Shown here: positions 1,728-37,495 of the stretch, piece after piece | Position numbering within the stretch: position 1 is the stretch's first letter | How the letters are laid out: each line of letters starts with the position of its first letter | From: a virus | Length of the DNA stretch: 39,705 bases | Reading direction: 5' to 3' (one strand) | Virus record (IMG/VR): IMGVR_UViG_3300007735_000715 | Span: 1-39,705 of that record | Translations under genes and position numbers: made by a program | Notes under the pieces: generated by a model | Seen by the model: only the letters and a program-made list of their open reading frames with translations | What the model was told of the DNA's origin: nothing | Database searches by the model: none

Positions 1728-4700
1728 TTATACCGCCGCTCTGTAAGTATCTCGTGAGTAATACTTTAATATTGAATTAAAGATTGCTCTTGCTGCTTCT
1801 TTAACTGCTGGGTCTTCTGACGCCAACTGATTGATAATGCTCTCAACACGGGCACGATAATCTCGCTTAAGTGATGCTGCATTGTAAAGACTACGAACTT
1901 GGTCGCTCTTGGCAAAACTCATAAAGTCTTCCATAGCCTGAACCGCTGTCTTCATCTTAAGTCTGACGCCATCTTGAATATTAGTTGTTGGGTCTGACAC
2001 CATCTGCTTTAGGCTACTAAGCATTGATTCTTCTGTAGCAATCTCATTACCGCCACCAGTAATAGCACCAAGTAACAGTGGATTAGACGCTAACAAACCC
2101 TTACGAGCCGCTGTTGCAGTCTCAATAATCCTTTTACGTTCTGAGATGTAAGTCTGCTTAGCAAGGGAATCTTTCTCCCATGATGCTATGTCGTAATAAG
2201 CCTGCTTATCTTCAGCAACTTGAACATCTCTGAAGTATGTTTCTAAGTCTTTATCCTTTAGAAGGTCTGCTGCTTGTAGCCAGTTGTAGATACCAGCATT
2301 AAAGTCTCCAGTATGTGGACCAAAGATATATGCTGCTTCGCCATAAGCGCCAATTAACTTCTTATTCTCAATAGCCCAGTTACGCATTTGAGTAGTCTTT
2401 GAGATAAGAACCTTAGTCTGCTTCTCATCACGGGCTACTGTATAAACAATCTTTCCTGGATACTGACCAGTAAAGATACTTAAAGATAGTTCATATGGGT
2501 CTTGAACATCGCTGCCGTATTTCTTATTAACAGCCTCATAGATATCCCAGAACTCATTACGCAATCCAGTGATACCTACATCAAGTAGATAGTCTGGAAC
2601 ATCTTTGCTTTCCTGAACAGATGCTGTTACTGGAGATATAAGACCAAGGATAGAACGCAATGCAATTACGTTATGTGCAGATGTACGAATAGCATTTAGA
2701 TATTCATACTTCTCTTGGTCGCTAGCAGTAGGTTGAAGACTTAATCCATGGGCTGCATTGTAGGCAACAGCCTGTTGTGCAGCAGTTACTTCTTGTCTAG
2801 TCTTCTCATTGATAGGAAGAATGTTCCATAGTTTTAATAATGAACCAGGAACCAAAGCACGAGCAACGTCTACGTTGTCGCCCAAGTTTCCTAATGCAAA
2901 GTTATCAAAGTCTTGTGCTGCTTTCTCTGCGCCAGGAATAGGAACCCTACTTACTAAGTTCTTCATACCAATTACGCTAAGTGCTGCAATAGGACCGCTA
3001 AGCAAAGGCAAACCAGAATCAGGTGAGAATGATGGGTTTACGTTGCTTAACTTAAATGTAAAATCATTAAACATTGGCTGCTTATATTGACTTTCGCCAG
3101 TTAGAGCCTTGATGCTTGTATCAGTAGCCTTGAAGATGATGTTATCCATAGGCATCATGATGTATGGTTCACCATTCTGGTCTTCATGGAACATACCACT
3201 TGAAGATAATCCAAGGTGAGCAAGACGCATACGGTATAGAACTGTAGGAGATACATCCTTTAGGCGGTACAAACGGCGCCAGAAGTCCTCAGTTGCACGA
3301 TAGAAACGACCAACTGTTCTTACCTCTACTGCAAAGTTAGAGCGAATAGATGGGTTATCTGCAAACTTTAATACAGTATCTGCTGCATCATTAAGGGCAA
3401 TTTCAGTAAAGTGCTTGGCTGCCTGCTCTTCAACACGGTTGTTAAGACGAGCCATTGCCTTATCACCCTTCCATTTGGTTGGGTTTTCTGCAATCATTTT
3501 GGCTTTTAACTCACGAGCATAGGCTGCTTGAATACCTGAATATTCTTTACGTAGTCTTAGATAGGTAGTCATAACTGCTGGTTGACGTAGCAAACCATTG
3601 ACTTGCTTATCCATTGATTCCATCATGGTATTACCAAGACGCTTAAATGCGCTATCAAATGTAGTTAAGTCTGGGAATTCAATACGGGTTTGAATTAAAC
3701 CTGATGGTTGATATCCCTTTGTCAGTTCATCAAACTGCTTAAAGTCAATCATCTGTGCAGCCTTTTGCCACTTGCTGCCAATCTTCCACTTACGCATACC
3801 CTCTGCTTGTTGCGCTTTTTCTTTAGCAACTAGGGCATTGTAGTTAGATTTGATTGCATCATATAGACCTTGGTTGTAACTCTTAGGTCCACCATGGAAG
3901 TTATCTCGCATATCCATGAGCATGCGCTCTAAATGGACACGAGCAATATCAAAATCTGACTTACCTTCTTGGCGCATAAATACTGAATCACCAAAGAAAC
4001 TATTAAACTTTTTAACAGCATCTATGTTCTGCTCAGTTACTTGCCAAACATCATCTACCTTCTTCATACCAAGGTAGGTATACATATCATCCATAGCCTT
4101 GGAGAAGTTCTCAGGTGTCTTTAAAGCACCATGATTAAAGAATGCAATAGCAGGTGCTACTCGGAAATCATCTGCAATCTTTAGTCCTCTACCATGTTGG
4201 CGAGGTGTAGCAAAACGGATATACCAGTTGTCATAGTGAGCAAGGGTTACATACTCTGGGTTAGCATCACGAAGTTTCTCTACTGCATACTCTTCGTATT
4301 TAGTTCCAGACTTTAATCCCTCGTTCTTAACAAGGTCATCAATTTCTTTTTCAGAAAGATTCTTACCTTCATACTTCTTGCGTGCCATCTTGCGACCAAC
4401 AGCATTTAAAGCATTAGATAGTTCGCTAAGGTTAATCTGATTATTTCTAATAACTTCATCAAAGGATGAACCCAAAGAACTTCTAGCAGCAACTGAACTA
4501 GCCATTGTGTTCAGGATATCTGGATTGAAAATCATTGCTTCATTCCAGTGCTGCATAGCCTCTGGACCTAGTTTTTCTGGCAAGAAAATCTTTACACGGT
4601 CTGCAATAGCCTGATTAATTACTAGATGTTGAACCTCAGCAGGTGAAACACCAGCCTGTTCTGCAAGTTGTTCAATGATTTTATTGCGTTCATCTATGCC

Positions 4701-6905
4701 AAGGTACTCAGATGATGGACCTTTACCAAATAACTTGCGTAATGTGCTACCAATTGGACCTTCTGCTGCACTACTACCAGTATAAGCAGCACTAGCACGA
4801 CCAGTTTTACGTCCTTGACCTTTAGCAAAGTTTAATAAGTCCCTACCAGGTGCGGTAAGTGCATACATAAAGCCTTCGTCAATAGCGGAACGAATACCTA
4901 AACGTGGGAAAAGTGTAAACACAGACCAGAAATCCGTAAAGTCTTTAGCAAACTTAGACTTAGTTGCACCTTGTGCAGCCTTAATAAGGCTTTGCTTTGA
5001 CTTTATCTCATTTGCTTTGAGTGCAATCTCTTCCAAAGGAAGTGGACCTACACCTCTTGCAATCTGTGATGGTTGAATTGCTCCAGAACCCTCAAGTAAT
5101 GCTGTGTCATTTTCATACTTAACTGTATCTTTAGAAAGAAGTCCAGCAAACTGGTCATCAACTTCAGTTCTAACTGTAGTTGTAAAGCCAGCACGTCCAT
5201 TGTGAGTCTTCTTTAGGTATTCCTTCATGATTGCTTCATCAGTAATACCAGCACGCTGCATAATTGCTGCGTAAAGATTACGCATTACCACAATCTGCTC
5301 ATCTTCAGTAGATGCTAAAAATTTTTGTGCTACAAAATCTGCCATATCACGGTCAAGAACTAAGCGAGCATAGTTGCGAACTGTATCAATTGTCTTGATT
5401 GCATCATCGCCAGTTAATACTGCTTGTCCTGCTGGGTTGCGGGCTGCCATTTTGCCTGCCCACTTACCAAATGCATCTACTTTATTTTTAAGTCCCTTAA
5501 TATCTTTTTCTTGCTTTGCAAATTCTACAATCTGTGGGTTTACAGCCTCATCAGATTTACGTCCTGCAGTTGAAAGAATATCCCATGCATCAGAACCCTT
5601 TACCTGTAGTTCTTCTGCACCACGCTTTACGTTAAAGAAGTTATCAGCACTAACAAAGGCTTTATCAAAGGTTGCTTCTAAGAAAGATTCAAGACCACGA
5701 GTAAGACGGCGGTCTGCACGAGCAGTAACTACGCCATTACGGCGATATGTCATACCATCTAAGCGACCAGAAAGTAATAGATGCACGTTAGATGCTTCAG
5801 AAAAAACATCTTCTGCTTTTTCAGCATTAAACATTTTTTTCTTAGCAAAGAAATCTAGTGCCTCATCATTGTTGTAGCCAGGAAAACGTCTTCCAATTTC
5901 ACGGCGAACAATTGCTCTCTCTGCTTCTGTCTTTGTAGAAGCGAGACGCTCAATCTCTGGACCAAATTGCTCATCCCAAAGTTTGATAACACCTTTATCT
6001 TTAAATACTTGAGCAACACCAGCAGCGACATCATCGCCAGCCTTAGTTACAAGTTCTGCTAACTGTGTTCCACGAGTTACAGCCTTGCTAGTTCCACCAG
6101 TAATCCAAGTAAGTGGGTCTATAGCAAGTTGATAAATAAAATCAATTACACCTGAAACATTTTTAGTAGTGCCGTCAATATAATCGCCAACAAGACCACC
6201 ATTTTTAGGTGGCTTTCTATCAAAGATTCTAGCAATATCACGACCAGGGCTAAACTGTGCATACTTAGCAGCATCCATTACCTGCTTAAATGCATCTGGA
6301 TTATTAAATGCTTCTTCAACAGCAGCGGTAATCTCTGGAGTTAAATCTCCATATGCTTCAAGAATTTCTCCAGGCTTCTTGCCTTCAAGTAATCCCTTTG
6401 CTACATAAATCTTTGCTTTACCAAATGTATTTTCAGCCTCAGCAATTGCTTGGTTGTCATATAGGTCTCTGCCGTCCCAAGCATCATCCCAAACTTTCCA
6501 ATCAAAAATGCTTTCGCCTTGTGCTACCTGACGAGCAACCTTGTATGGTTGATTAATAACACGGTTATATGCGCCAGCAACTTTAAACAATCCAATAAGT
6601 GGGCTTGCAAGTAGTTTGCCAGTAAATTTTAAAGCGCCTAAAGCACGGTCACCAAAATCTGGTGGCTGTTGCATGTACTCAGCATCGCCAAAGAATGATT
6701 TCAAACCTTCTTGAGCATTAGGGTCAAGGGCTTCAAACTCTTTACGTGCATCATTAGATGACATCTGAGTAAGTTCTTTATTCTTTTTAACAGCCCAAGA
6801 CATTTGTTCAACTTGAGTCTGTTCTCTAGCAGTTAGATTTGCTCTAGTTGCTGCCTGATAAAGTGTAGGTGACGCTTCAGCGACAATGGGTTTTAAAACT
6901 CTCAC
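1728..6905 (-). CDS. Giant internal virion (ejection-type) protein
   Basis: This 1725-residue protein takes up about 13% of the genome. It is soluble-looking and mostly helical, with many charged stretches. A few hydrophobic segments stand out: around residues 90-125 (LKFTGKLLASPLIGLFKVAG), around 700 (FPRLGIRSAIDEGFMYALTA), and a region near 1330-1360 rich in Pro, Gly and Leu. I see no protease, polymerase or muralytic motif. In short-tailed phages, very large late proteins encoded among head genes are commonly internal proteins ejected with the DNA, for example T7 gp16 or the N4 virion RNA polymerase. That is the basis for the call. A tape measure is less likely because no tail-tube or chaperone genes adjoin it. 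The start at ATG 6905 lies 9 bases after the upstream stop. Confidence 0.75.
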   Translation of the reverse strand: MRVLKPIVAEASPTLYQAATRANLTAREQTQVEQMSWAVKKNKELTQMSSNDARKEFEALDPNAQEGLKSFFGDAEYMQQPPDFGDRALGALKFTGKLLASPLIGLFKVAGAYNRVINQPYKVARQVAQGESIFDWKVWDDAWDGRDLYDNQAIAEAENTFGKAKIYVAKGLLEGKKPGEILEAYGDLTPEITAAVEEAFNNPDAFKQVMDAAKYAQFSPGRDIARIFDRKPPKNGGLVGDYIDGTTKNVSGVIDFIYQLAIDPLTWITGGTSKAVTRGTQLAELVTKAGDDVAAGVAQVFKDKGVIKLWDEQFGPEIERLASTKTEAERAIVRREIGRRFPGYNNDEALDFFAKKKMFNAEKAEDVFSEASNVHLLLSGRLDGMTYRRNGVVTARADRRLTRGLESFLEATFDKAFVSADNFFNVKRGAEELQVKGSDAWDILSTAGRKSDEAVNPQIVEFAKQEKDIKGLKNKVDAFGKWAGKMAARNPAGQAVLTGDDAIKTIDTVRNYARLVLDRDMADFVAQKFLASTEDEQIVVMRNLYAAIMQRAGITDEAIMKEYLKKTHNGRAGFTTTVRTEVDDQFAGLLSKDTVKYENDTALLEGSGAIQPSQIARGVGPLPLEEIALKANEIKSKQSLIKAAQGATKSKFAKDFTDFWSVFTLFPRLGIRSAIDEGFMYALTAPGRDLLNFAKGQGRKTGRASAAYTGSSAAEGPIGSTLRKLFGKGPSSEYLGIDERNKIIEQLAEQAGVSPAEVQHLVINQAIADRVKIFLPEKLGPEAMQHWNEAMIFNPDILNTMASSVAARSSLGSSFDEVIRNNQINLSELSNALNAVGRKMARKKYEGKNLSEKEIDDLVKNEGLKSGTKYEEYAVEKLRDANPEYVTLAHYDNWYIRFATPRQHGRGLKIADDFRVAPAIAFFNHGALKTPENFSKAMDDMYTYLGMKKVDDVWQVTEQNIDAVKKFNSFFGDSVFMRQEGKSDFDIARVHLERMLMDMRDNFHGGPKSYNQGLYDAIKSNYNALVAKEKAQQAEGMRKWKIGSKWQKAAQMIDFKQFDELTKGYQPSGLIQTRIEFPDLTTFDSAFKRLGNTMMESMDKQVNGLLRQPAVMTTYLRLRKEYSGIQAAYARELKAKMIAENPTKWKGDKAMARLNNRVEEQAAKHFTEIALNDAADTVLKFADNPSIRSNFAVEVRTVGRFYRATEDFWRRLYRLKDVSPTVLYRMRLAHLGLSSSGMFHEDQNGEPYIMMPMDNIIFKATDTSIKALTGESQYKQPMFNDFTFKLSNVNPSFSPDSGLPLLSGPIAALSVIGMKNLVSRVPIPGAEKAAQDFDNFALGNLGDNVDVARALVPGSLLKLWNILPINEKTRQEVTAAQQAVAYNAAHGLSLQPTASDQEKYEYLNAIRTSAHNVIALRSILGLISPVTASVQESKDVPDYLLDVGITGLRNEFWDIYEAVNKKYGSDVQDPYELSLSIFTGQYPGKIVYTVARDEKQTKVLISKTTQMRNWAIENKKLIGAYGEAAYIFGPHTGDFNAGIYNWLQAADLLKDKDLETYFRDVQVAEDKQAYYDIASWEKDSLAKQTYISERKRIIETATAARKGLLASNPLLLGAITGGGNEIATEESMLSSLKQMVSDPTTNIQDGVRLKMKTAVQAMEDFMSFAKSDQVRSLYNAASLKRDYRARVESIINQLASEDPAVKEAARAIFNSILKYYSRDTYRAAV

Positions 6906-6914
6906 TATGCGCTC

Positions 6915-7316
6915 CTAAATAAACTTTGAAAGAATAAGTTCTACTTCGCCTGTATCATCAAACATTGCTACTTTTGCAATAGTATCTCTAGGATTTGATT
7001 TATAACGTGGCAAATCCATCATTGCTTCTGAACCAGGACCAGGTCCTTTATCAATACCAGCAGTTCCTGGCTCTTCTGGAAACATAGTTGGTGCATCTAA
7101 CGGAACAACATTTACTCCACCCATTGAAGGAAATGGATTTCCTTGCATAGGTTCTTTTACTTGGTTGTCGTAAGTTTGCTGTCCTTGTCCATAAGGTAAT
7201 CCTGGGATGTATGTTGCTGGCTGGGTTGGTGACCCGTCAGTGCGCTGACTAAGACTTCCAGGACCAGATACTGGTGCTGGGTTATTAGGTTGTTGGTATC
7301 CACCTTTGCCTGCCAT
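6915..7316 (-). CDS. Conserved Pro/Gly/Gln-rich phage protein
   Basis: This 133-residue protein begins MAGKGGYQQPNNPAPVSGPG. The N-terminal 90 residues are low-complexity and rich in Pro, Gly, Gln and Asn, so probably disordered. The last 30 residues (TIAKVAMFDDTGEVELILSK) look like a short ordered element. Similar proteins sit between portal and capsid genes in many environmental actinophages and cyanophages, from general recall rather than a search. A virion or assembly role is inferred from position only. The start at 7316 abuts the stop of the upstream gene at 7317, so the two are probably co-translated. Confidence 0.8.
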   Translation of the reverse strand: MAGKGGYQQPNNPAPVSGPGSLSQRTDGSPTQPATYIPGLPYGQGQQTYDNQVKEPMQGNPFPSMGGVNVVPLDAPTMFPEEPGTAGIDKGPGPGSEAMMDLPRYKSNPRDTIAKVAMFDDTGEVELILSKFI

Positions 7317-7568
7317 TTAATCCTCATCCTCTTCTGTTTCTTCTTTAGAAAATGTTTCATTGTCGTATTCTTGAGCGCATTGAATCATTCCATATGCGTT
7401 CCAAGGCGTCATAGCCTCGCTTACCTCTGTATGTAAATATCGTGTTCCCCCATAATCTGCCCACTCGGATATTAATACCCAGTTGATGCAAACAAATTCT
7501 TCATTGGTTTCTTGTTCAACTAAGAAACGTAATGCGTCTTCAACTTTTTCTTGGAATTTATTACTCAT
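7317..7568 (-). CDS. Small conserved phage protein
   Basis: This is an 83-residue acidic protein starting MSNKFQEKVEDALRFLVEQE, with an Asp/Glu-rich C-terminus (EETEEDED). The core has several aromatic residues (NWVLISEWADYGGTRYLH) and may form a small alpha/beta fold. No known motif is visible. Its start at 7568 overlaps the end of the Ntn hydrolase gene (stop at 7565), as ATGA-type coupling. This suggests it is made with the hydrolase and could be a partner or cofactor of it, which is an inference from coupling. Related small proteins occur in other actinophages, but their function is unknown to me. Confidence 0.8.
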   Translation of the reverse strand: MSNKFQEKVEDALRFLVEQETNEEFVCINWVLISEWADYGGTRYLHTEVSEAMTPWNAYGMIQCAQEYDNETFSKEETEEDED

Positions 7569-8134
7569 GCGTACTGCGTCCTAACAATAACTGGCAGCGC
7601 AGTATGTATGTCCCACTTTGCTGCAATCTCAATTGCTGTTGTTACAGCAACTTCCGCATCTTCTGGTGAGAAAGGTAAACCTCCGTGGCAATAACTCTCC
7701 ATAACGCCAAGGGCAATGTCACCACCGCTCCCAGAAAAATAAATACCGTTAATATCACGGTCCCAAGAATAATCTTCAAAGACAGGGTAAATAACTCCAC
7801 GGACAACAATAATAAATGACGAATCGTGTTCGGCAGCATCCCCGTCTTCTTTCATATCGTAACCAGCGTCAATAAATGCTTGACGCATTTGTGGAATAAA
7901 CTTTTGTGTCATGAACTTATCTAAGTTCTCATTTACCGTTGGCTTCGGTGCTTTCCAACCAAACTGTAAAATATTAGAACCACGGCTAGAACCAGAACCC
8001 GCAATTAAGATTCCATTGTTTTCAATAATCTTATGTGTTGCAAGATTCATTGGACGACCACTATCGTCAGATGAACGAGAGTCACATCCAATAACAGCCC
8101 AGCCATCACCCTGTATAGCAGCAAGTGTTGTCAT
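7565..8134 (-). CDS. Proteasome beta/HslV-like Ntn hydrolase
   Basis: This 189-residue protein matches the 20S proteasome beta-subunit plan. After Met1 the sequence is TTLAAIQGDGWAVIGCDSRS, giving an N-terminal threonine nucleophile (Thr2) if Met is removed, then Asp18 and Arg20 (the Asp17/Arg19 positions of beta subunits) and Lys35 (near Lys33). The distal FSGSGGDIALGVME motif (about 133-146) and WDIHT (174-178) match the conserved GSGxxxAxG and Asp166-x-x-Ser/Thr169 motifs. Length is close to HslV and minimal beta subunits. There is no propeptide: the Thr follows Met directly, as in HslV. ATG 8134 has a strong AAGGAGG site. It sits directly after portal, where a prohead protease normally lies, so a capsid-maturation role is an attractive inference. 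Degradation of host proteins is the alternative. Confidence 0.85.
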   Translation of the reverse strand: MTTLAAIQGDGWAVIGCDSRSSDDSGRPMNLATHKIIENNGILIAGSGSSRGSNILQFGWKAPKPTVNENLDKFMTQKFIPQMRQAFIDAGYDMKEDGDAAEHDSSFIIVVRGVIYPVFEDYSWDRDINGIYFSGSGGDIALGVMESYCHGGLPFSPEDAEVAVTTAIEIAAKWDIHTALPVIVRTQYA

Positions 8135-8148
8135 CGTCCCCTCCTTGC

Positions 8149-9903
8149 TTATCTACGTACGGATGTTCTTGCGCTTGCGCTTGCCTTACCACCTGATGTT
8201 AAAGATGCTAATAGTGTTTGAATGTCTGGTCTGCCTGCGCCACCTTGAGGTGGAAGAGCGCCTCCCACTGGTGCGGCGGGAGCAGGGGACATTTGCTCAA
8301 CCTGAGGTGCACCAGCAGGAGGTTGTTCTGGAGTGAAGACCTCGTTGATAGCGTCTTCAATACTTACACCCTTTTGACGTGCCTTGATTACATCTGCAAT
8401 TTGTTTAACCAAACCAGTTGGGTCTTGTCCCTGTGTAATCATCTGAGGAATTGCTTGAGCAGTTGCCTGTAGTGCGCCAACCAAAGTGTTACGCATTTCT
8501 TCTACTTCAATTTTTTCTTGTTCCATAGTTACGTTAATTCCAAATGGAAGTTCACGCATTGCCATATCACGGCTAATTAACTTACCGCCAAGGGCTTGCA
8601 ACATAAAGATAAGTCCTTGTGCTGGGTTAAGTCCTGCCAACATTCCATAACGAACATCGGCTGAGTAATCCTTTTTAATATCCTTTGATGGTAGATATTG
8701 AAGGCTAAACGGTGAGCCTGCATCTACGCCACGAATTGTCTTCTCGTAGTTAAAGAACATCTCATCAATCATGAAGCAGAGAGAAAGAACTTCCTTTAGA
8801 GAAGAAGCAAAGATTGCTTGAGCAGATTTAACTTGTGTATCAAAACCACCCATAAGCGCTTGAACGCCTTGTCCCGTGATGATTGATGCATCAATGTTTC
8901 CAGTACGTCCCTCTGGATAACGTGTACCAGTACGAAGTTCTGCCTGTAGTATTGATTGTTCAGTGAATGCTCCAGGTGGAATATTGAGGTCCACACGGCG
9001 CACACCTGCTGGAGAGTTGGTGCGAATAATCGCATCTCCACCAAGTTGTAGTTCCTGCACATCGCTTGGAACAACGATTGGTGCTTGTACAGATTTCTCT
9101 GCTGCTTCCATCGCAAGTAATGCGAACCTATTACGAAGCAGTTGAATACCTAATACATCATCAAATTGTCCACGCATCTCGCCATCTACTGATGGACGTT
9201 TTGCTACAACAACCATCATCTTGCCAATTGGATTAGGCGCAGATGATAGAACTAGGTTGTGACGTTCTGGCATATAAATTAAAGATTGGTCTTTATCGTA
9301 ATAACGAACAATCTCAACTTGAGCATGCAAGTCTTGCTTGTATCCTCTTTCGCCAAGAAGTTGTCCTTCAAACTCTGGGAACTGTGCAACCAATTCTGCA
9401 AGTGGAAGGGTATAGCGTTTAGCGAAGGCAATACAACGCCCATAGCGGTCAAACTCTGGGTAAGCCCCGATTGGACTTTCTATGCGTATGCGAGGTAAGC
9501 CCGCTTCTTCGTCTAATTCAATTATGAATGGGACGAAACCGAATGTGATGTACCAGTCTGCGCCTGTGTACATCTGTACTTGGAAATCAGAATGTATAAA
9601 ATAGTTAGAAGCAATACGAGTTCTTTTATCAGCGAACTGGCGAGCACGGTCACTGACTTGATTCGCTGCAGAACAGTTAACGGCTGGCAGTGGTGCCATG
9701 ACTTCTGACAAGTCTTTGGCAACGATGTCAATAAAGTTTGCGACAACATTTGCATCTACACCCTCTGGAAAAAATTCAGGATAAACTTGAGAGATTTGTC
9801 CTTTGCGGACAGCAAGAACGTCTTGGTGTCTACGGTCACGGTCTGCTGCACGCATACGTAAAGAATCAATACGTGCTGCAATCTGGTCAATAGTTAATGC
9901 CAT
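8149..9903 (-). CDS. Portal protein
   Basis: This 584-residue protein lies directly downstream of the large terminase. It begins with a helical segment (ALTIDQIAARIDSLRMRAAD), carries an alpha/beta portal core, and contains a long helical stem region followed by a Pro/Gly/Ala-rich, probably disordered C-terminal tail (residues about 525-584, ending ASARTSVRR). Twelve copies would form the DNA channel at the capsid vertex and dock the terminase. Length, order (terminase, portal, protease slot) and sequence character support the call, though no single catalytic motif defines portals. The gene starts at ATG 9903, 7 bases after the terminase stop, in the same transcript. Confidence 0.85.
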   Translation of the reverse strand: MALTIDQIAARIDSLRMRAADRDRRHQDVLAVRKGQISQVYPEFFPEGVDANVVANFIDIVAKDLSEVMAPLPAVNCSAANQVSDRARQFADKRTRIASNYFIHSDFQVQMYTGADWYITFGFVPFIIELDEEAGLPRIRIESPIGAYPEFDRYGRCIAFAKRYTLPLAELVAQFPEFEGQLLGERGYKQDLHAQVEIVRYYDKDQSLIYMPERHNLVLSSAPNPIGKMMVVVAKRPSVDGEMRGQFDDVLGIQLLRNRFALLAMEAAEKSVQAPIVVPSDVQELQLGGDAIIRTNSPAGVRRVDLNIPPGAFTEQSILQAELRTGTRYPEGRTGNIDASIITGQGVQALMGGFDTQVKSAQAIFASSLKEVLSLCFMIDEMFFNYEKTIRGVDAGSPFSLQYLPSKDIKKDYSADVRYGMLAGLNPAQGLIFMLQALGGKLISRDMAMRELPFGINVTMEQEKIEVEEMRNTLVGALQATAQAIPQMITQGQDPTGLVKQIADVIKARQKGVSIEDAINEVFTPEQPPAGAPQVEQMSPAPAAPVGGALPPQGGAGRPDIQTLLASLTSGGKASASARTSVRR

Positions 9904-9910
9904 TATGTTC

Positions 9911-11797
9911 CTATCCGTATATTTCAGCCCACTGTTCTTGGAAGGCTTCGTCTAAATTAACCACATATCTTTGTTCTCTTTGTGCTCTGGTTACCCAGCG
10001 ATTATTAGCAAACTTAGTTAAGTTACTTGTCTGCTGCATAAACTCTCTAGCACGAAGCACTGCAAACCATAAAGCCATAACACAGTCAGTCTTGCCTCGT
10101 GTATTGGCTTTCCAAGTTATTAGTTGTTGAACTAAAGACTTAAGCCCCTCTGAATCAGATGTTGATGGAAGTTCGATTGTATTGTTGCCTTGAAACTTTC
10201 CATCTCGCATGGTGCCAAATAGCATTGACATAGATGCCACACCGAAATTTGTGTCCCACTTATTTTTGTTTGTATGATGGGCTTCAAGCCTTACGCCGTA
10301 GGTTGCGAGCCACTGGCGTAAGTCCTCATCTAATGAGTAAGCCTTTTGATGAGCGTTGATTTCAACACGAAATTCTTGTGGCTTATATCTACCAACAAGT
10401 TCTTCGATAGTGTTACGAATTTTTTGAGGATTCGGTTCGCTCATGTTTATGCAATCAAGTACATAAATTTTGCCGTCTGCTCTGTTAAAAGTTATAACTA
10501 CAAAAGCAGCATTACCTGCCATAGCAGGGTCAAAGCCAATTATTGTGTAACCTTCAACCGCAGTCGGATGTCCCACCGCCCCTTGCTTCAAGGGACCACG
10601 TCTCCTAGTACCCTTGATACATGCTTGAATCAAGGCGGGCGGGAAGATGGAATCTTCTTCGACATCCTCCTGCTGATATACCAAAGCCCAAGTTGATGGA
10701 GTTACTTCGCCTCTGCGCCGTTGTAAAGTTTTGCCATCCCACTTTGGATATAAACCATCTTCATCAGGTATGTCTTCATCGCCATCCCATGGCGCATCAG
10801 ACTTAGCCCAAAGTGTTACCCACTTAGCGGGGTCTTCGTCATACTCTAAAACTGCTGGCATACCCATGTAGGTAAAGGGACACTTACCCCCAGACCAATA
10901 CTTGGGTTCTCTTAACTCTCTATAAAAATCTGTGGCAGCAATTCGTGTGCCAACGATAAGAAGTTTACCGTTCTTACCTAGACGGGTAATAACTTCTTTT
11001 TGTAGCCAGTCAATTTGCTTTTCGTACTCATGGGCGTTAGCGGTAGTAATGCAGTCATCAAGAATGATGAGGTCAGCACGGGCACCGTAAATCTGTCCAC
11101 CCATACCTAGTGCCTGAAGGGTAGGGTCCTTTTCGCTTGAGTTTCTCGCATCACTCCCAAGGTAGACGGTGTCAACTCGCCAAGTATCAGAGTCATCTTT
11201 CCAGCCACCTTCTGGTCCATAAGTTGTTTGCAACTTAAGCCAGCGAGGGTGGGATAACCGTTGCTTGATTGCGTACACGAATTCTCGTGCTTTGAGTAAC
11301 GTCTTACTTACCACGATAATGCGGACGTTAGGATTGAGAGCGATACGATAAGTTGAGTAGTTGACGGTAATGACCGTGCTCTTAGCATGCTCAGGGGGCA
11401 CGTTGATTAATAGTCGAGATTGTTGCCCTTGCTCATACTTCATTGAGGGGTGCAGCCATGAAGGCTCTCTACCCTCTAGTAGGTCAATCCAATCTTGGTG
11501 ATGTGGAAAAACCTTTTGGTCCAAAAAAATTTCGGAGAACTGGGGAAAGGAGATTTCATCCTTTGCTATTCCCAGCGCTTTCACAGATTTGTTTTTGGCG
11601 TCCTCTTTAGCCTCAGCCAAGTCAGCGGCAAATTTTTTATCTCTGAGCATCCAGATTCTGACCGTATCTGGTTTTTTGCCACAGAGTTCCATAGCCTTAT
11701 GAGGACTATGTCCTTCAGCCACAAGGGCTAAAACCTTAGCCTTGGCATCAACCATAGCCTCAGTTCTGGGGTTATTAACCCCTTTTTGAAAAGTCAC
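9911..11797 (-). CDS. terL: Terminase large subunit with N-terminal helix-turn-helix
   Basis: This 628-residue packaging ATPase/nuclease has three visible parts. Residues 15-65 (KVLALVAEGHSPHKAMELCG followed by KPDTVRIWMLRDKKFAADL) look like a helix-turn-helix of the kind found in small terminases. The ATPase has a variant Walker A PPEHAKST (134-141), Walker B ADLIILDD (241-248) and a coupling motif near GTRIAATD (283-290). The RNase H-like nuclease starts with IIGFDPAMAG (Asp423). No separate small terminase was found nearby. Translation probably starts at GTG 11797, the first gene of the late block, facing the non-coding divergent region. An internal ATG at 11755 preceded by GAGG is possible, but would remove the start of the N-terminal domain. 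Confidence 0.93.
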   Translation of the reverse strand: MTFQKGVNNPRTEAMVDAKAKVLALVAEGHSPHKAMELCGKKPDTVRIWMLRDKKFAADLAEAKEDAKNKSVKALGIAKDEISFPQFSEIFLDQKVFPHHQDWIDLLEGREPSWLHPSMKYEQGQQSRLLINVPPEHAKSTVITVNYSTYRIALNPNVRIIVVSKTLLKAREFVYAIKQRLSHPRWLKLQTTYGPEGGWKDDSDTWRVDTVYLGSDARNSSEKDPTLQALGMGGQIYGARADLIILDDCITTANAHEYEKQIDWLQKEVITRLGKNGKLLIVGTRIAATDFYRELREPKYWSGGKCPFTYMGMPAVLEYDEDPAKWVTLWAKSDAPWDGDEDIPDEDGLYPKWDGKTLQRRRGEVTPSTWALVYQQEDVEEDSIFPPALIQACIKGTRRRGPLKQGAVGHPTAVEGYTIIGFDPAMAGNAAFVVITFNRADGKIYVLDCINMSEPNPQKIRNTIEELVGRYKPQEFRVEINAHQKAYSLDEDLRQWLATYGVRLEAHHTNKNKWDTNFGVASMSMLFGTMRDGKFQGNNTIELPSTSDSEGLKSLVQQLITWKANTRGKTDCVMALWFAVLRAREFMQQTSNLTKFANNRWVTRAQREQRYVVNLDEAFQEQWAEIYG

Positions 11798-18743: not shown

Positions 18744-19169
18744 GTGCCTAGCACGGAAGCACCTATAAGCATCAATCTAAAATCAGCAGGTGGTACAGGT
18801 ATCACACTGCGAGGAGAAACTGCAGAACAGTTTGCAGATATGATTGCAAACGGCATTCATATTATTGCTGATGCAGTCAAAGAAGTTGAGACTGCAATCA
18901 AAGGCGTAAGTCCTGCAATGTCAACACAAGATATCGCTGCTAGTTTAGGCGGTAGTATCATTAACGAAAGTCCAGTAACACAATCTATTGGTGGGCGTAA
19001 CTGTCCACATGGAAGAATGACTGCCATTCAAGGAATGGGTAAAGATGGGAAACCATATAAGGGTTACTTCTGTCCAGCACCAAAAGGTGCATTTGATAAG
19101 TGTAAGAACCAATACGTACTTGTTACCAGTCCAGACTGGAATACATTCGTACCAGATTCGGTAAAGTGA
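18744..19169 (+). CDS. Conserved protein with putative zinc motif
   Basis: This 141-residue protein starts at GTG 18744 after AAGGAGAATAT. The first half contains ISINLKSAGGTGITLRGETA and a helical segment (QFADMIANGIHIIADAVKEV). The second half has CPHG, YFCPAP and KCKNQ (three Cys, one His near residues 90-125), which could bind a metal. Its stop overlaps the helicase start as GTGA. Between nuclease and helicase genes, a replication accessory role such as helicase loading or DNA binding is plausible but unproven. Confidence 0.65.
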   Translation: MPSTEAPISINLKSAGGTGITLRGETAEQFADMIANGIHIIADAVKEVETAIKGVSPAMSTQDIAASLGGSIINESPVTQSIGGRNCPHGRMTAIQGMGKDGKPYKGYFCPAPKGAFDKCKNQYVLVTSPDWNTFVPDSVK

Positions 19170-19978
19170 AAACACTTAGACGCTCAATTAACAAAGCAGA
19201 AGTGGGTGGCGAACCATTGCCACCCGCTTTTGCGGCATTTGAACGGGCTGGAATTATTCTGCGTAGAGCAGAGGTAACAGTTATTGCTGGCACTCCAGGT
19301 GCAGGTAAGTCATCTATTGCCCTTGCTATAGCAGCCCGAACAAAACTACCAACTCTTTATTTCAGCGCAGATACAAACGCACATACAATGGCTATGCGAT
19401 TAGTTGCTATGGCAGGTAACATGTCACAGCAAAATGCAGAACAACTATTAAAGAAAGATGCAGAAAAAGCACACGAACTTTTGTTATCTAACAATCATTT
19501 GTTTTGGTCTTTTGAATCAACACCAACACTTAAAGATTTAGATGATGAAGTATCAGCCTTTGAAACTGTGTGGGGCAGAAGTCCTACTCTAATTGTTGTA
19601 GATAACCTAATGGATATAGCAATGGATGGGCATGAAGAGTTCCACGGTATGCGAGCAGCAATGAAAGAACTAAAGTATCTTGCTCGTGATACTAACGCTG
19701 CACTACTGGTACTGCACCATACTAAAGAAGGCTTTGAAGGTTATCCTTGCCAGCCACGGTCAGCAATCCAGGGTTTAGTCAATCAAATTCCAGCAATGGT
19801 GCTAACTATTGGGCAAATGAAACAAGGTGATGATACTTACCTATGCGTAGCACCAGTCAAGAATAGATATGGCAGAGCAGACCAAACAGGAAACAACTAT
19901 GTAACTCTTGCATTTAATCCTGAGTCTATGTATCTAGAAGATGTTATCGTTAGATACCAACAGGAGGGAATGATGTGA
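19166..19978 (+). CDS. RecA-fold ATPase, DnaB-like helicase
   Basis: This 270-residue protein has Walker A GTPGAGKS (42-49), Walker B TLIVVD (141-146), and a LLVLHHTKEG segment (180-189) followed by QPRSAIQGLVNQIP. This is the pattern of the DnaB/RecA superfamily C-terminal ATPase domain. It lacks the N-terminal primase-interacting domain of full DnaB, as do many phage versions. It would unwind DNA at the fork together with the split primase just downstream. The start is GTG 19166, overlapping the upstream stop; the stop overlaps the resolvase start. Confidence 0.85.
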   Translation: MKTLRRSINKAEVGGEPLPPAFAAFERAGIILRRAEVTVIAGTPGAGKSSIALAIAARTKLPTLYFSADTNAHTMAMRLVAMAGNMSQQNAEQLLKKDAEKAHELLLSNNHLFWSFESTPTLKDLDDEVSAFETVWGRSPTLIVVDNLMDIAMDGHEEFHGMRAAMKELKYLARDTNAALLVLHHTKEGFEGYPCQPRSAIQGLVNQIPAMVLTIGQMKQGDDTYLCVAPVKNRYGRADQTGNNYVTLAFNPESMYLEDVIVRYQQEGMM

Positions 19979-22765: not shown

Positions 22766-22888
22766 ATTAAAAGACTACGGCACATATTCTGTTTTAGATA
22801 TGCATGGGAAGTAATAGACCCACAAAAATCTTTTTGGAATCTTAAATGTACAAAGTGTGGTTATGAAAAGGAGATTACTTTTGAATGA
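22766..22888 (+). CDS. Small zinc-containing protein with a likely ATT start, 40 residues
   Basis: The frame reads IKRLRHIFCFRYAWEVIDPQ then KSFWNLKCTKCGYEKEITFE. The pattern of C...H and C-x2-C with a Trp-Glu-Val-Ile core looks like a genuine small phage protein. No ATG, GTG or TTG lies in the right place. The first codon after GGAGG (22756-22760, 5-base gap) is ATT 22766, a rare but known start codon. It overlaps the WhiB start by 8 bases. Confidence 0.5.
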   Translation: MKRLRHIFCFRYAWEVIDPQKSFWNLKCTKCGYEKEITFE

Positions 22889-23153
22889 CTATCCGAAGTG
22901 GGAAGGAAGACCAGCGTGTGAAGGTATTGATACAGAGTTTTTCTTTACAGAAGGTAGTTATGACAACTTGCCAATGTTAAAAAGAATATGCAATAATTGT
23001 CCAGTAATACAGCAATGCTTTGATTACTCAATCAAGTATGCTGTCAGTGGTTACTGGGCAGCAACTACTGAAAACCAGAGAGAGGGATATAGAAAGTTGC
23101 ATAATATAAAACCTAAAGCAGTAGTTCCCCTATCAGTTTACGAGATGGGTTAA
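22881..23153 (+). CDS. WhiB-family iron-sulfur transcription regulator
   Basis: This 90-residue protein is read from TTG 22881, which follows AAGGAGA (22867-22873). Cys13, Cys37, Cys40 and Cys46 (C...CxxC-x5-C) match the 4Fe-4S ligands of WhiB proteins, and GYWAATTENQREGYRKL matches the turn and basic tail. In the usual turn the residues after Trp are Gly-Gly; here they are Ala-Ala. WhiB proteins occur in actinobacteria and their phages, where they bind the primary sigma factor and redirect transcription. This is the strongest host marker in the genome. It probably works with the sigma-like protein at 21718. Confidence 0.88.
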   Translation: MNDYPKWEGRPACEGIDTEFFFTEGSYDNLPMLKRICNNCPVIQQCFDYSIKYAVSGYWAATTENQREGYRKLHNIKPKAVVPLSVYEMG

Positions 23154-27162: not shown

Positions 27163-28140
27163 TTAGTAAGTGATTGAACCATCGCCATTAAATTGATAAA
27201 TATGATAACTACCAGAGGTAGTATATGTTGGTGAACCCGTAGTTGATGCTGCTGCTCGGGTAGCACGAACAATAACTACGCCTGAACCGCCATTGCCACC
27301 ATTTGTTGTAGTTTGCTGTCCATTACCGCCACCACCGCCACCTGTGTTTGCAGTTCCTGATGTAGGATTTGGTCCAGTACCTTCATATCTAGCACCACCA
27401 GCACCTCCTCCACCTGAGCCACCAGAACCTTGGGTATTAGCGGAACCATATCCACCGCCACCACCACCACCTGCATAGGTAACAGATGAACCTGTAATGG
27501 AAACTGCTACACCATTACCGCCGTTACCACCACCACCTGCTGAAGGGGTGCCTTGAGTAGTTGTGTTAGCACCTGCAGCACCTGCACCACCTCCGCCTGC
27601 GCCACCATATCTACCAGAAAGTCCATTTCCGCCAGCGTAGCCTTGATTAGTAGTACCAGTTCCACCATTATAAGGACCTGCGTTGGCATTTCCGCCAGCA
27701 CCACCACCTGAGCCACCATTTTTACCTGGGTTACCTGTTGCATCATTAGAACCAGCGTGTCCTCCACCACCACCGCCATCTGATGTAATGGTTGAAAATA
27801 CCGAGTTATTTCCAGTAGTACCTCGCATAGTAGTGTTAGAACCATTTAAAACGCCACCTGCACCGCCTGCACCAACAGTTACTGTATAAGAAGTACCTGG
27901 AGTTAATGTTAAAGCGGTTTCTAAAGAACCACCACCACCTGTTGCCGTAACGGTAGAGCGAAGACCACCTGCACCACCGCCTCCTGCACCTGCATCATAA
28001 CCTGAATTTGCACCACCACCTCCTGCACCTGCGACTACTAGATAGTCAGCAGTAACTGAAAGAGCAGTTGTTTGGTCCCAAAACTTAGATGATTTAACAC
28101 CAGTTCTAATACTTGATGTAGAAAATTTACGAATAGCCAT
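27163..28140 (-). CDS. Glycine-rich tail adhesin, copy 1
   Basis: This 325-residue protein starts with a short anchor (AIRKFSTSSIRTGVKSSKFW-DQT), then TADYLVVAGAGGGG and long Gly-rich tracts (GGGGGG, GGAGG, TGNPGKNGGSGGGAGG). It ends with a conserved tail (SGVVIVRATRAAASTTGSPT and YTTSGSYHIYQFNGDGSITY). Gly-rich tracts of this type can form polyglycine-II helix bundles, as shown for phage S16-type adhesins, and bind host surfaces. It is paralogous to the neighbouring gene at 28140-29093. DNA in the Gly tracts is GGN-repeat rich. Variation here could change host range. Confidence 0.75.
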   Translation of the reverse strand: MAIRKFSTSSIRTGVKSSKFWDQTTALSVTADYLVVAGAGGGGANSGYDAGAGGGGAGGLRSTVTATGGGGSLETALTLTPGTSYTVTVGAGGAGGVLNGSNTTMRGTTGNNSVFSTITSDGGGGGGHAGSNDATGNPGKNGGSGGGAGGNANAGPYNGGTGTTNQGYAGGNGLSGRYGGAGGGGAGAAGANTTTQGTPSAGGGGNGGNGVAVSITGSSVTYAGGGGGGGYGSANTQGSGGSGGGGAGGARYEGTGPNPTSGTANTGGGGGGNGQQTTTNGGNGGSGVVIVRATRAAASTTGSPTYTTSGSYHIYQFNGDGSITY

Positions 28141-29093
28141 TAGTAAGTAATACTCCCATCACCTGTAAATTTGTAAATGTGGTAAGAACCTGATGTTGTG
28201 TAAGTTGGTGAGCCAGTAGTTGATGATGCCGCTTGGGTTAATCTAATAATAACTACACCTGAACCACCAGCACCGCCAGCAGAACCACCACCACTACCGT
28301 AAGTACGCCCACCGCCACCACCGCCACCACCTGTGTTGGCAGTACCAGTTCCACCAGTTGTTCCATCGGCATTTGAACCACTACCACCACCACCGCTTCC
28401 AGCAGAACCAGTAGTTAAATCACCACGGCAACCACCACCACCGCCACCAGCGTAGGTAACTGACGAGCCAGTAATAGATACTGCTACGCCATCTCCACCA
28501 TTGCCTGATGCAGTACCAGTAGCACCAGCAGCATTTGCACCACCACCGCCACCACCTCTTTCAGCACCTGAGATGTTGTTACCTTGTCCACCATTGTTGC
28601 CTTGTATTGGAGATGCGGTTCTTGTGCCACCTGCACCACTACTACCACCACCATTACCGCTACCGCCACCTGAGCCACCATCTCCACCTGCACCAGTAGT
28701 TGAACCACTTTGATTACCTGCACCACCATAACCACCACCTGTTGCGGTTACGGTTGTAATACCAGTTCCAGAAATAGATGAGTTGCCACCTTGTACGCCA
28801 TTATTACCGCCAGCAGCAGCACCAGCACCACCACCACCTACTGTAACCGTGTATGTGTTTCCTGTAATAAGTTTTAAGGCAGTTTCTAAAGTACCACCAC
28901 CACCAGTTGCAGTTACGGTTGAACGAAGTCCACCTGCACCAGCACCGCCACCATGCTTACTACCACCACCACCACCACCTGCAACCACAAGATAATCAGC
29001 AGTTACAGTTAATTGTGTAGTTTGGTCCCAAAATCTAGTATATTTTGGTAACGCTTGAGTAAACCTAGAGTTACTAAATCTTGAAACAGCCAT
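28140..29093 (-). CDS. Glycine-rich tail adhesin, copy 2
   Basis: This 317-residue paralogue of the downstream gene has the same order: AVSRFSNSRFTQALPKYTRF-WDQT anchor, TADYLVVAGGGGGG, Gly-rich core (GGGYGGAGNQSGSTTGAGGD), and the same ending (SGVVIIRLTQAASSTTGSPT, then YHIYKFTGDGSITY). The two differ mainly inside the Gly core. Duplicated host-binding adhesins may give two receptor specificities or allow recombination between copies. The stop and next start overlap, so both should be made together. Confidence 0.75.
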   Translation of the reverse strand: MAVSRFSNSRFTQALPKYTRFWDQTTQLTVTADYLVVAGGGGGGSKHGGGAGAGGLRSTVTATGGGGTLETALKLITGNTYTVTVGGGGAGAAAGGNNGVQGGNSSISGTGITTVTATGGGYGGAGNQSGSTTGAGGDGGSGGGSGNGGGSSGAGGTRTASPIQGNNGGQGNNISGAERGGGGGGANAAGATGTASGNGGDGVAVSITGSSVTYAGGGGGGCRGDLTTGSAGSGGGGSGSNADGTTGGTGTANTGGGGGGGGRTYGSGGGSAGGAGGSGVVIIRLTQAASSTTGSPTYTTSGSYHIYKFTGDGSITY

Positions 29094-33137: not shown

Positions 33138-33857
33138 TTACTTCTTTCTGTGATGTTTTGGCAAAATTAAATTTGATTGCTTTTCTACTGCGCCAAAAAA
33201 TGCACCGTAGTAATGCTCATCAAATGAAAACCTTTTAATGTGTGGAACCGTTGCTCCAGTATCACACCAAATTTCTACCCCTGCTTTGCCACAAAGTGCA
33301 AAGAAGTAGATGTCTTCACCTATAAATGTTTTCTCAGTTCCTGCTTCTAAAAACATAGCAGTATTTGGAACTGCTTCAATAATCTTGTCCACTACACTTC
33401 TGTGCATTAGGACAAATCCCATACCTGCTGCAGCAACCTGCATAAATTTATCCCTAGGCAGAGGATGAATTGGTTTAATACCAATAGTTTCCCCAGCATC
33501 TACAAATTCAAACACTGTAGGTTCTGGAACCATTAGTGGTTCTTCTGGATTCTTAGTAGTAAAGTAAACACCAGTTACAATTGGGTGTTTATCTTTATCT
33601 TTTTTATTCCATAATCTTAAGAATTTATCTGGGCTAATAACTACATCTGAGTCTACCCAGAGTAGCCACTCGCTTTTGTTCTGTTCATACCAATAACGGA
33701 TAACATGTTCACGTTGTCTTGCTATCTGGTTGCCACCAGAACGGATAGTAGATTCAAACTTAACTCCTGACTCCAGAAGTACGTTTGCTACCCCGTGCAT
33801 AAACTTTCCGTCTACATTTCCATTATCGCACCAAGCGAGTGAAACTGTTTCTTGCAT
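33138..33857 (-). CDS. Glycosyltransferase-like protein (GT-A)
   Basis: This 239-residue protein has a GT-A-like sugar-nucleotide fold signature: SLAWCDNGNVDGKFM at the start, an early helix with GGNQIARQREHVIRYW, and Asp69-Ser-Asp71 in WLLWVDSDVV (the DxD metal site). Later PIHPLPRDKFMQVAAAGMGF and EDIYFFALCGKAGVEIWCDT fit the acceptor and base regions. It could glycosylate a capsid, fibre or host glycan. Location in the head-tail operon makes a virion target attractive but unproven. The enzyme substrate cannot be predicted. Confidence 0.8.
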   Translation of the reverse strand: MQETVSLAWCDNGNVDGKFMHGVANVLLESGVKFESTIRSGGNQIARQREHVIRYWYEQNKSEWLLWVDSDVVISPDKFLRLWNKKDKDKHPIVTGVYFTTKNPEEPLMVPEPTVFEFVDAGETIGIKPIHPLPRDKFMQVAAAGMGFVLMHRSVVDKIIEAVPNTAMFLEAGTEKTFIGEDIYFFALCGKAGVEIWCDTGATVPHIKRFSFDEHYYGAFFGAVEKQSNLILPKHHRKK

Positions 33858-36007: not shown

Positions 36008-36964
36008 CTAAGAAGCGATTGAAGAACCAGACTCAATGCGATATAGAGCCTCTTCACGGTAGCGAGCAAAGCCAAGTACGCCGTACCAACCCATTGGGCG
36101 ATGACGCATCAACTTGTCAACTACTGGTCCGATAACTACATGTGGCTCTTCAGCAACTGCCTCAGCCAATGCTTGCTGTCCAGCAAGAATTGTGCGGTAG
36201 TTACGTGCTGAAGAAGCACCATCAGTTGCATTGTAAAGACGTGCAGATTCTACGAAGAATGCACCTTCGTAGTTTCCGATTTCTCCTGCCCAGATGCGGT
36301 CTTGTGAAGAACCGTATTGGTTAGGAAGCAACCATCCTGCTGAACCTGTCTCAGCACGAAGGTCGTGTGAAACTTCTGGGTGGATACCACACCAGTATAG
36401 GCTGCCCTTGCGAGCAATAGACTTGTTAGCACGCAACTTAGCAACAGCCTTGCGGATGTTTGCTGAAGATAGTGTTGCTGCTGCAGTGATTGTTGCAGTA
36501 GATGTTGCTGTTGAACCTGAGTAGATTACGTTTGAACCACCACGAAGAGTTGTCATCGCAACTTGGTCAATAGAATCTGCAAGGTTGAACGCAATGATGT
36601 TAGCAATTGCTGGGTCAACATCTGCAAGTGAGAACAACTCAAGTGCACGGGTTACAAGTACTGAGTTACCATACTCTGCAAGAGTAATGGTTACAGATGT
36701 TGGTGTAGACATTGCTACTGCATCTGGGTCAGTATCTTCTGTTAGTGCAGTTGTTGCTGCTGAAAGGTCAACATAGCGTTGTAGAACAACTGTTGAACCT
36801 GGGATTGCTTGTTTTGCGGGACGCTTATCTGCGACAGAACGAATTAGGGGTTCTGCACGGAGAGCGAACTCAAGAAGACGGTCATACGCCTTCTGGACTA
36901 GACCTGCACCACCAGCGGTACCTCCAAGAGAGGAAGAGCCTGTGGATACGTAGGAGTTAGCCAT
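36008..36964 (-). CDS. Major capsid protein, N4-gp56 type
   Basis: This 318-residue protein contains LVQKAYDRLLEFALRAEPLI, the conserved QAIPGSTVVLQRYVDLSAAT strand, a TPTSVTITLAEYGNSVLVTR E-loop-like region, YWCGIHPEVSHDLRAET, and a GPVVDKLMRHRPMGWYGVLG end. This pattern is that of the N4-gp56-family HK97-fold capsid. It forms the icosahedral shell. ATG 36964 follows GGAGGTG. It is preceded by the scaffold gene and followed by small basic genes. Confidence 0.85.
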   Translation of the reverse strand: MANSYVSTGSSSLGGTAGGAGLVQKAYDRLLEFALRAEPLIRSVADKRPAKQAIPGSTVVLQRYVDLSAATTALTEDTDPDAVAMSTPTSVTITLAEYGNSVLVTRALELFSLADVDPAIANIIAFNLADSIDQVAMTTLRGGSNVIYSGSTATSTATITAAATLSSANIRKAVAKLRANKSIARKGSLYWCGIHPEVSHDLRAETGSAGWLLPNQYGSSQDRIWAGEIGNYEGAFFVESARLYNATDGASSARNYRTILAGQQALAEAVAEEPHVVIGPVVDKLMRHRPMGWYGVLGFARYREEALYRIESGSSIAS

Positions 36965-36997: not shown

Positions 36998-37486
36998 TTA
37001 TTGGTTTGAGTTCAGGAGGGCAATTAACTCTTCGGCACTTTGTGCGTTATCAAGTTTTGAATTTAAATCCTGTGCTCGTTCAGGGGTCATAGCATTCTGA
37101 GTAATTACGTCTTGTTGACGTAGTGCCGCAAGGTTTATATCTGTCTGCTCTTTGTTCTGACCATTGTCAGATACCTGCAATCCAAATAGGTCTGCGTTAT
37201 CATCGAGCCAATTATTAACTGACTCCTCGTTAACATCATCCAAATCCTTGAGGATTAGTCTTACTGCTTTTGCGTTGACGCCCTTCTTTTCTAGGACTTC
37301 TTTGACGGTTCTCTCACGCTGCACCTTGGATAAACTCTCAAGTTGCTCAGTAAGTTCTTTGATACGTTTCTCATCTGCACGCTTGGCTTTGCGTAACTTC
37401 TTTAACAAGTCACCGCCATCGTTTGAGTAAGTGTCTGTATCATCGATGTCGTCATCTTCATCGTCCCAGTTTATGTTGTTGCTCAT
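36998..37486 (-). CDS. Scaffolding protein
   Basis: This is a 162-residue acidic, coiled-coil protein from ATG 37486 (a GTG at 37495 overlaps the ribosome site). It begins MSNNINWDDEDDDIDDTDTY, has a long heptad region (LLKKLRKAKRADEKRIKELT), and has a helical C-terminus (AQDLNSKLDNAQSAEELIAL) for capsid contact. Size, composition and position directly upstream of the capsid gene define a scaffold. A leader with several hairpins (37496-37607) precedes it. Confidence 0.8.
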   Translation of the reverse strand: MSNNINWDDEDDDIDDTDTYSNDGGDLLKKLRKAKRADEKRIKELTEQLESLSKVQRERTVKEVLEKKGVNAKAVRLILKDLDDVNEESVNNWLDDNADLFGLQVSDNGQNKEQTDINLAALRQQDVITQNAMTPERAQDLNSKLDNAQSAEELIALLNSNQ

Positions 37487-37495
37487 AGCAACCAC

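Follow-up and report, generated by a model that had tools for sequence, protein, structure and literature searches.

What does a proteasome-like hydrolase do directly behind the portal gene of a phage? The question is raised by a viral stretch of 39,705 nucleotides (here called the window; positions 1 to 39,705 of IMG/VR record IMGVR_UViG_3300007735_000715), in which the initial annotation had read positions 7565-8134 as an Ntn hydrolase occupying the place of a prohead protease. The open reading frame is present exactly there and lies on the minus strand, an orientation that had not been given; the plus-strand reading of the same interval contains many stops. Its product of 189 aa, which begins with MTTLAAIQGDGWAVIGCDSRSS, has a Met-Thr start and no propeptide. 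The gene starts 14 nt past the stop codon of the portal gene and thus follows it as closely as had been described.

We assessed the family assignment by profile and structure comparison. The window protein matches PHROG 1040 ("peptidase HslV family") with an E-value of 4.9e-22, and its match to Pfam PF00227, taken alone, is sub-threshold (E 0.011), so that the placement rests on profiles of the wider family and on the predicted fold. A single scan of viral contigs recovered 375 relatives. Compared with PDB sequences, the profile of an 18-member alignment matched HslV (E 4e-13) and BPH (E 7e-10), and that of a 52-member alignment matched BPH (E 2e-13) and HslV (E 3e-13), with weaker matches to 20S beta subunits. 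AlphaFold2, run on the 52-member alignment, gave a confident Ntn model of the monomer (pLDDT 89.6, pTM 0.87) with helices H1-H4 at residues 50-58, 71-89, 138-148, and 157-174 and a final strand at 182-188, and with no C-terminal H5. The top Foldseek match of this model was BPH (E 4.5e-12, TM 0.77-0.78), followed by HslV and 20S beta, the probability being 1.00 for each of the three. By these comparisons the protein is a predicted member of group I (HslV, BPH, AAH, CPH, and PPH), nearer to HslV and BPH than to the 20S alpha and beta subunits or to Anbu.

All residues singled out in the initial annotation were found in place, namely Thr2 directly after Met1 (codon 8129-8131, minus strand), Asp18, Arg20, Lys35, the GSGG motif at residues 135-138 (7721-7732, minus strand), which is the counterpart of the HslV GSGG segment, and the WDIHT motif at residues 174-178; profile, fold, and conservation agree with the complete catalytic plan of the proteasome/HslV type that it had proposed. 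Conservation was counted over 158 unique aligned homologue sequences. The residue next to the start Met, the predicted nucleophile, is Thr in 157 of them and Ser in one, Asp18 and Lys35 are invariant (158/158 each), and G48, the equivalent of the oxyanion residue Gly47, occurs in 157; the triad Thr/Ser1, Asp17, and Lys33 is present, and its Thr/Asp/Lys residues are kept among the homologues. Both G135 and G137 are found in all 158 sequences, whereas R20 is common rather than invariant (147/158), and D175 of the WDIHT motif is an Asp in 114 only. The dN/dS ratios of the protease, 0.03-0.14 across seven pairs, point to purifying selection. Given the PHROG match, the 375 relatives, the residue conservation, and the low dN/dS, the gene is real and conserved, and the open reading frame is not a chance one.

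Because the Thr stands directly after the start Met, bare removal of this Met would expose it as the nucleophile Thr1, judging from what is established for HslV and the proteasome. Behind helix H2, residues 90-105 (7820-7867, minus strand) form an acidic loop at the position equivalent to the pore loop, and the loop after H2 has a median length of 17 and a median net charge of -5 across the family. A long acidic pore loop is found in BPH, whereas the corresponding stretch of HslV is short and basic (PMC8665760). No HslU-type AAA+ unfoldase was detected among the window ORFs scanned, a set that left out some small ORFs, and the only AAA-type matches in the window fall on a DnaB-like helicase (19166-19978). 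Genome-contig scans with two queries returned no cellular relatives; bacterial homologues came via plasmids.

The coupling to an acidic partner of 83 residues, also part of the initial annotation, is borne out by gene overlap and by co-occurrence. The partner ORF, p83 (7317-7568, minus strand), shares an ATGA (7568-7565) with the protease, a 4-nt overlap of the protease stop and the p83 start, and its product ends in EETEEDED. The protease lies directly upstream in 240 of 241 p83 loci, the remaining one being cut by a contig end, and 83 protease loci have no p83, although some of our tallies count one contig more than once, as loci were fetched in different scans. Since p83 has the protease beside it in 240 of its 241 loci while these 83 protease loci do without it, p83 depends on the protease and is an optional companion of it. 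Its dN/dS ratios are 0.09-0.19. The AlphaFold2 model of p83 has a pLDDT of 65, and its fold is not confident; no family was found in Pfam, NCBIfam, or PADLOC, PHROG gave weak matches only, and a tblastn search of a phage collection found p83 in ct2KA10 only. Four contigs from close relatives without a protease behind the portal carry, in the same slot, a different ORF of 83-86 aa with a similar acidic tail (L261:2823-3080, L278:7080-7331, L286:5411-5662, and L293:8912-9172); the protease was not found within these contigs, which are fragments.

The two genes stand within a block of virion genes on the minus strand. The upstream portal protein (8149-9903; PHROG 104, E 3e-27) is 41-43% identical to the portals of Streptomyces podoviruses, and the gene for the terminase large subunit (9911-11797; PHROG 38, E 2e-67) precedes it. 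Downstream are p133 (6915-7316; phrog_8200), which is also present among the downstream ORFs of protease-less relatives, and the giant p1725 (1728-6905), which by its position and size is probably an internal or ejection protein of the virion; p1725 had no family match in the Pfam and PHROG searches, and a protein of similar size occupies its position in Streptomyces podoviruses. Farther away lie the gene for the major capsid protein of the N4-gp56 family (36008-36964, minus strand; 318 aa; TIGR04387, E 1e-34) and that for a probable scaffolding protein (36998-37495, minus strand), recognized by alignment to the proteins of Manuel and FlowerPower that correspond to a Dennebes gene annotated as scaffolding protein. 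Capsid proteins of ~400 aa, with an insertion of ~75 aa near residue 254 of the window's capsid protein, were observed in the relatives G001, G003, G010, G011, G013, and G014. The head and tail block of the window also holds a glycosyltransferase-like gene (33138-33857; PHROG 34859, E 1e-70), and two neighboring glycine-rich proteins in the tail region (27163-29093) resemble tandem paralogues. A WhiB-family regulator, an actinobacterial marker, is encoded at 22857-23153 on the plus strand (PF02467, E 2e-12), and because of it the host is probably actinobacterial; the IMG/VR contigs themselves are described as "environmental" and no more closely.

The position of the gene behind the portal is strongly kept in the window's clade. 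Well over a hundred contigs repeat the succession of terminase, portal, protease, p83 where present, p133, and giant protein, and the protease follows the portal by 14 or 15 nt in ~270 of 304 loci, with overlapping records counted in. A search seeded with the portal found 25 loci with the protease and 45 with none in the fetched stretch, although a contig that shows no protease may be a partial one. One contig (L142:2083-4275) shows an in-frame fusion of portal and protease from which the portal tail and the first residues of the protease, the Thr included, are missing; it is probably a deletion or an assembly artefact. This near-fixed position in the late head operon points to a function late in infection or connected with the virion in this clade. 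Among other actinophages, where the initial annotation had proposed to look for portal-adjacent homologues, Pitbull, Pumpernickel, and LeeroyJenkins have their homologue outside the head operon.

The slot does not always hold the same protein. Among phages whose portals are ~70-77% identical to that of the window, the identity of the protease in the slot to the window's own falls at either ~70-75% or ~30%, and p83 accompanies both versions, A and B. When version A, version B, and absence behind the portal are treated as three states on a FastTree tree built from 98 portals, at least 12 changes are needed, a count that recombination inside the portal could inflate; the mean for shuffled labels is 46. 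Gene replacement in place would give such an alternation. In the protease tree, which has long branches and modest support, the slot proteins group with actinophage proteins, and proteins from Rhizobium and Streptomyces plasmids and from a Moorella phage are set apart from them.

In other phages the gene lies elsewhere. Three related contigs without a protease behind the portal, each searched as a whole record, carry a relocated and p83-less gene (L407:8017-8784, L408:3426-3983, and L409:2318-2875) at the start of the replication block, where an unassigned ORF of ~315-337 aa follows it and then a gp49-like gene and DnaB; two of these contigs have WhiB between the gp49-like gene and DnaB. In DSL-LC01, Pitbull, MTATph1, pT24, VpV262, and Pumpernickel the protease gene likewise lies amid non-head genes, and in Microbacterium phage LeeroyJenkins the homologue is gene 16 while the annotated capsid maturation protease is gene 25. 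Streptomyces podoviruses of the Beephvirinae are the isolates whose portal (41-43%) and capsid (~55%) come nearest to those of the window. Manuel, Dennebes, and FlowerPower have a similar head arrangement with small ORFs behind the portal, and no protease homologue came up when their complete genomes were searched with a profile. Abafar, of the genus of Manuel, has icosahedral, short-tailed virions (PMC11536984). The window capsid and scaffold align end to end with the equivalents from the Streptomyces podoviruses, and the N-terminus of the window capsid has just ~8 residues more than those of the protease-less relatives, with no long extension.

These comparisons bear directly on the prohead-protease role proposed in the initial annotation. 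The remark that the window holds no other maturation protease stands, in that no recognized maturation protease family was found in our searches of it. The capsid-maturation role itself is not supported: against it speak the sister phages that have the homologous head genes and no protease, the relocation of the gene, its co-occurrence with an annotated capsid protease in LeeroyJenkins, and the capsid N-termini. Because related phages lack the gene or have it beside replication genes, and because its versions alternate, it is not tied to capsid building, and across the lineage the protease is neither required for nor tied to building the head. The result corrects a tempting inference, namely that a protease behind the portal is necessarily the prohead protease.

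We favor, with modest confidence, a putative accessory protease that acts in the infected cell, probably independently of an unfoldase. The nucleophile Thr would be freed by the host methionine aminopeptidase, the subunits would close into a double ring like that of BPH or HslV, and substrates would enter without a dedicated unfoldase. The targets may be host or defence proteins, or else misfolded or surplus phage proteins, and p83 may adapt, gate, or restrain the protease. PADLOC gave no link between the protease and known defence proteins.

Two readings that keep the enzyme closer to the virion stay alive because the late-operon position is so strongly kept in the clade. In the window's clade the enzyme might trim the scaffold, the portal, p133, or p1725 while the head is assembled, after the manner of prohead proteases in other phages. 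Such a morphogenesis protease would fit the constant siting of the gene in the late operon, behind portal and ahead of p133/p1725, as well as the want of a recognized maturation family in the window, but we hold it to be unlikely, given that sister phages manage with homologous head genes alone, that a related clade has the gene among replication genes, that LeeroyJenkins has the homologue in addition to its capsid maturation protease, and that the window capsid, compared with those of protease-less relatives, shows no long N-terminal domain that could be cleaved off. It seems improbable that the protease travels in the virion, either packaged or alongside the ejection proteins, to act early in the next host. 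Its gene does lie between the portal and a giant probable ejection protein, and the copy at the head of the replication genes in another clade would fit an early need; yet no packaging signal is known, and a copy in the replication operon is made anew in the cell, so that delivery would be unneeded there.

A product that engages the host proteasome, either by supplying a decoy subunit or by offering another chamber for a host unfoldase to feed, would suit a host that is probably actinobacterial by the WhiB regulator, since among bacteria the 20S proteasome is found mainly in actinobacteria (PMC8665760). In sequence and fold, however, 20S beta is a more distant match than BPH or HslV, and Moorella, Tenacibaculum, and Vibrio are hosts to related phages, which makes this possibility quite remote in our judgment. 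A specific protein ligase, or an enzyme that processes a single substrate, is very improbable: the family does include archaeal connectase, a monomeric ligase (PMC8665760), but connectase is without H1 and H2, whereas the model has all four flanking helices, and the two-helix insertion of connectase between strands 3 and 4 is not seen in it.

The accessory-protease reading may also be put more boldly, as a two-gene unit in which p83 regulates an unfoldase-independent proteasome-like ring, the unit being fixed behind the portal in one clade and its divergent versions alternating like allelic counter-weapons against host targets that differ; that this holds, or that the gene, should its product act on virion proteins in the clade, is instead the first morphogenesis protease with a proteasome fold, is possible but doubtful. 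A large clade supplies the context pattern, consisting of a near-fixed position, a dependent partner, alternating versions, and sister lineages in which the gene is absent or sited with replication. The one-way dependence of p83, the near-fixed slot, the alternation, and the sister lineages without the gene bring the family within reach of experiment, as p83 is a definite candidate for an interactor and as phages with and without the gene, or with version A or version B, can be compared.

Among known systems, the prohead proteases of Caudoviricetes (S78, S14, S49, and T4 gp21) share the slot after the portal, as in many phages, but the gene described here is not tied to head genes. Their catalytic plan is unrelated to the proteasome type. 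PPH, found in phages and their hosts, is likewise a phage-borne member of group I, and was rejected as an assignment: it has ~140 aa and is without H2, whereas the window protein has 189 aa and an H2 at residues 71-89. AAH is also phage-borne and has been reported from many phages. Plasmid homologues from Rhizobium, Mesorhizobium, and Streptomyces, probably of the AAH type, score 102-110 bits against the family profile, compared with 41 bits for E. coli HslV, and branch apart together with the Moorella phage protein. One plasmid homologue, that of Rhizobium tropici pRtrCIAT899b (L384), has an in-frame stop and no annotated gene and appears to be broken.

HslV (ClpQ) resembles the phage protein in its MTT start and GSGG segment, and 15 of the 18 members of the diverse alignment match the curated HslV family; it differs in that the phage protein has the long acidic loop and that no HslU accompanies it among the window ORFs scanned. 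None of the HslV models was matched by the window protein at E 0.01, and the other members reached only ~1e-7 at best; HslV proper was rejected on the want of both a model match and an HslU. BPH (PDB 5ovs, 5ovt, and 5ovu) shares the Thr nucleophile, the absence of a propeptide, the acidic H2 loop, and the lack of a known unfoldase, and is the best Foldseek match as well as the joint best profile match (E 2e-13). The identity in structural alignment is nonetheless only ~15-21%, the phage gene has a partner ORF, and BPH forms a heptameric double ring, whereas the phage protein was modeled as a monomer only. The family profile scores BPH at 53 bits, but in the protease tree BPH sits on a very long branch.

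Phage-borne relatives of the protein were already known, so the suggestion that it represents a new arrangement holds in part only. Pitbull gp77, Pumpernickel gp135, and LeeroyJenkins gp16 ("protease"), as well as PHROG 1040, belong to the same family by profile, although the genes of these three phages lie outside the head operon. An HslV without HslU occurs in Salmonella phage pSal-SNUABM-04 (PMC7823757), a proteasome ORF in vB_EliS-L02 (PMC9127768), and a BPH in RXM (PMC8953757). PPH and AAH have been described as phage-borne, with no Actinobacteria-specific phage carrying AAH and no telling gene context (Fuchs et al., 2021; PMC8665760). What is new relative to these systems is the slot beside the portal, conserved in one large clade of environmental phages, together with p83, the alternating versions, and the relocation of the gene.
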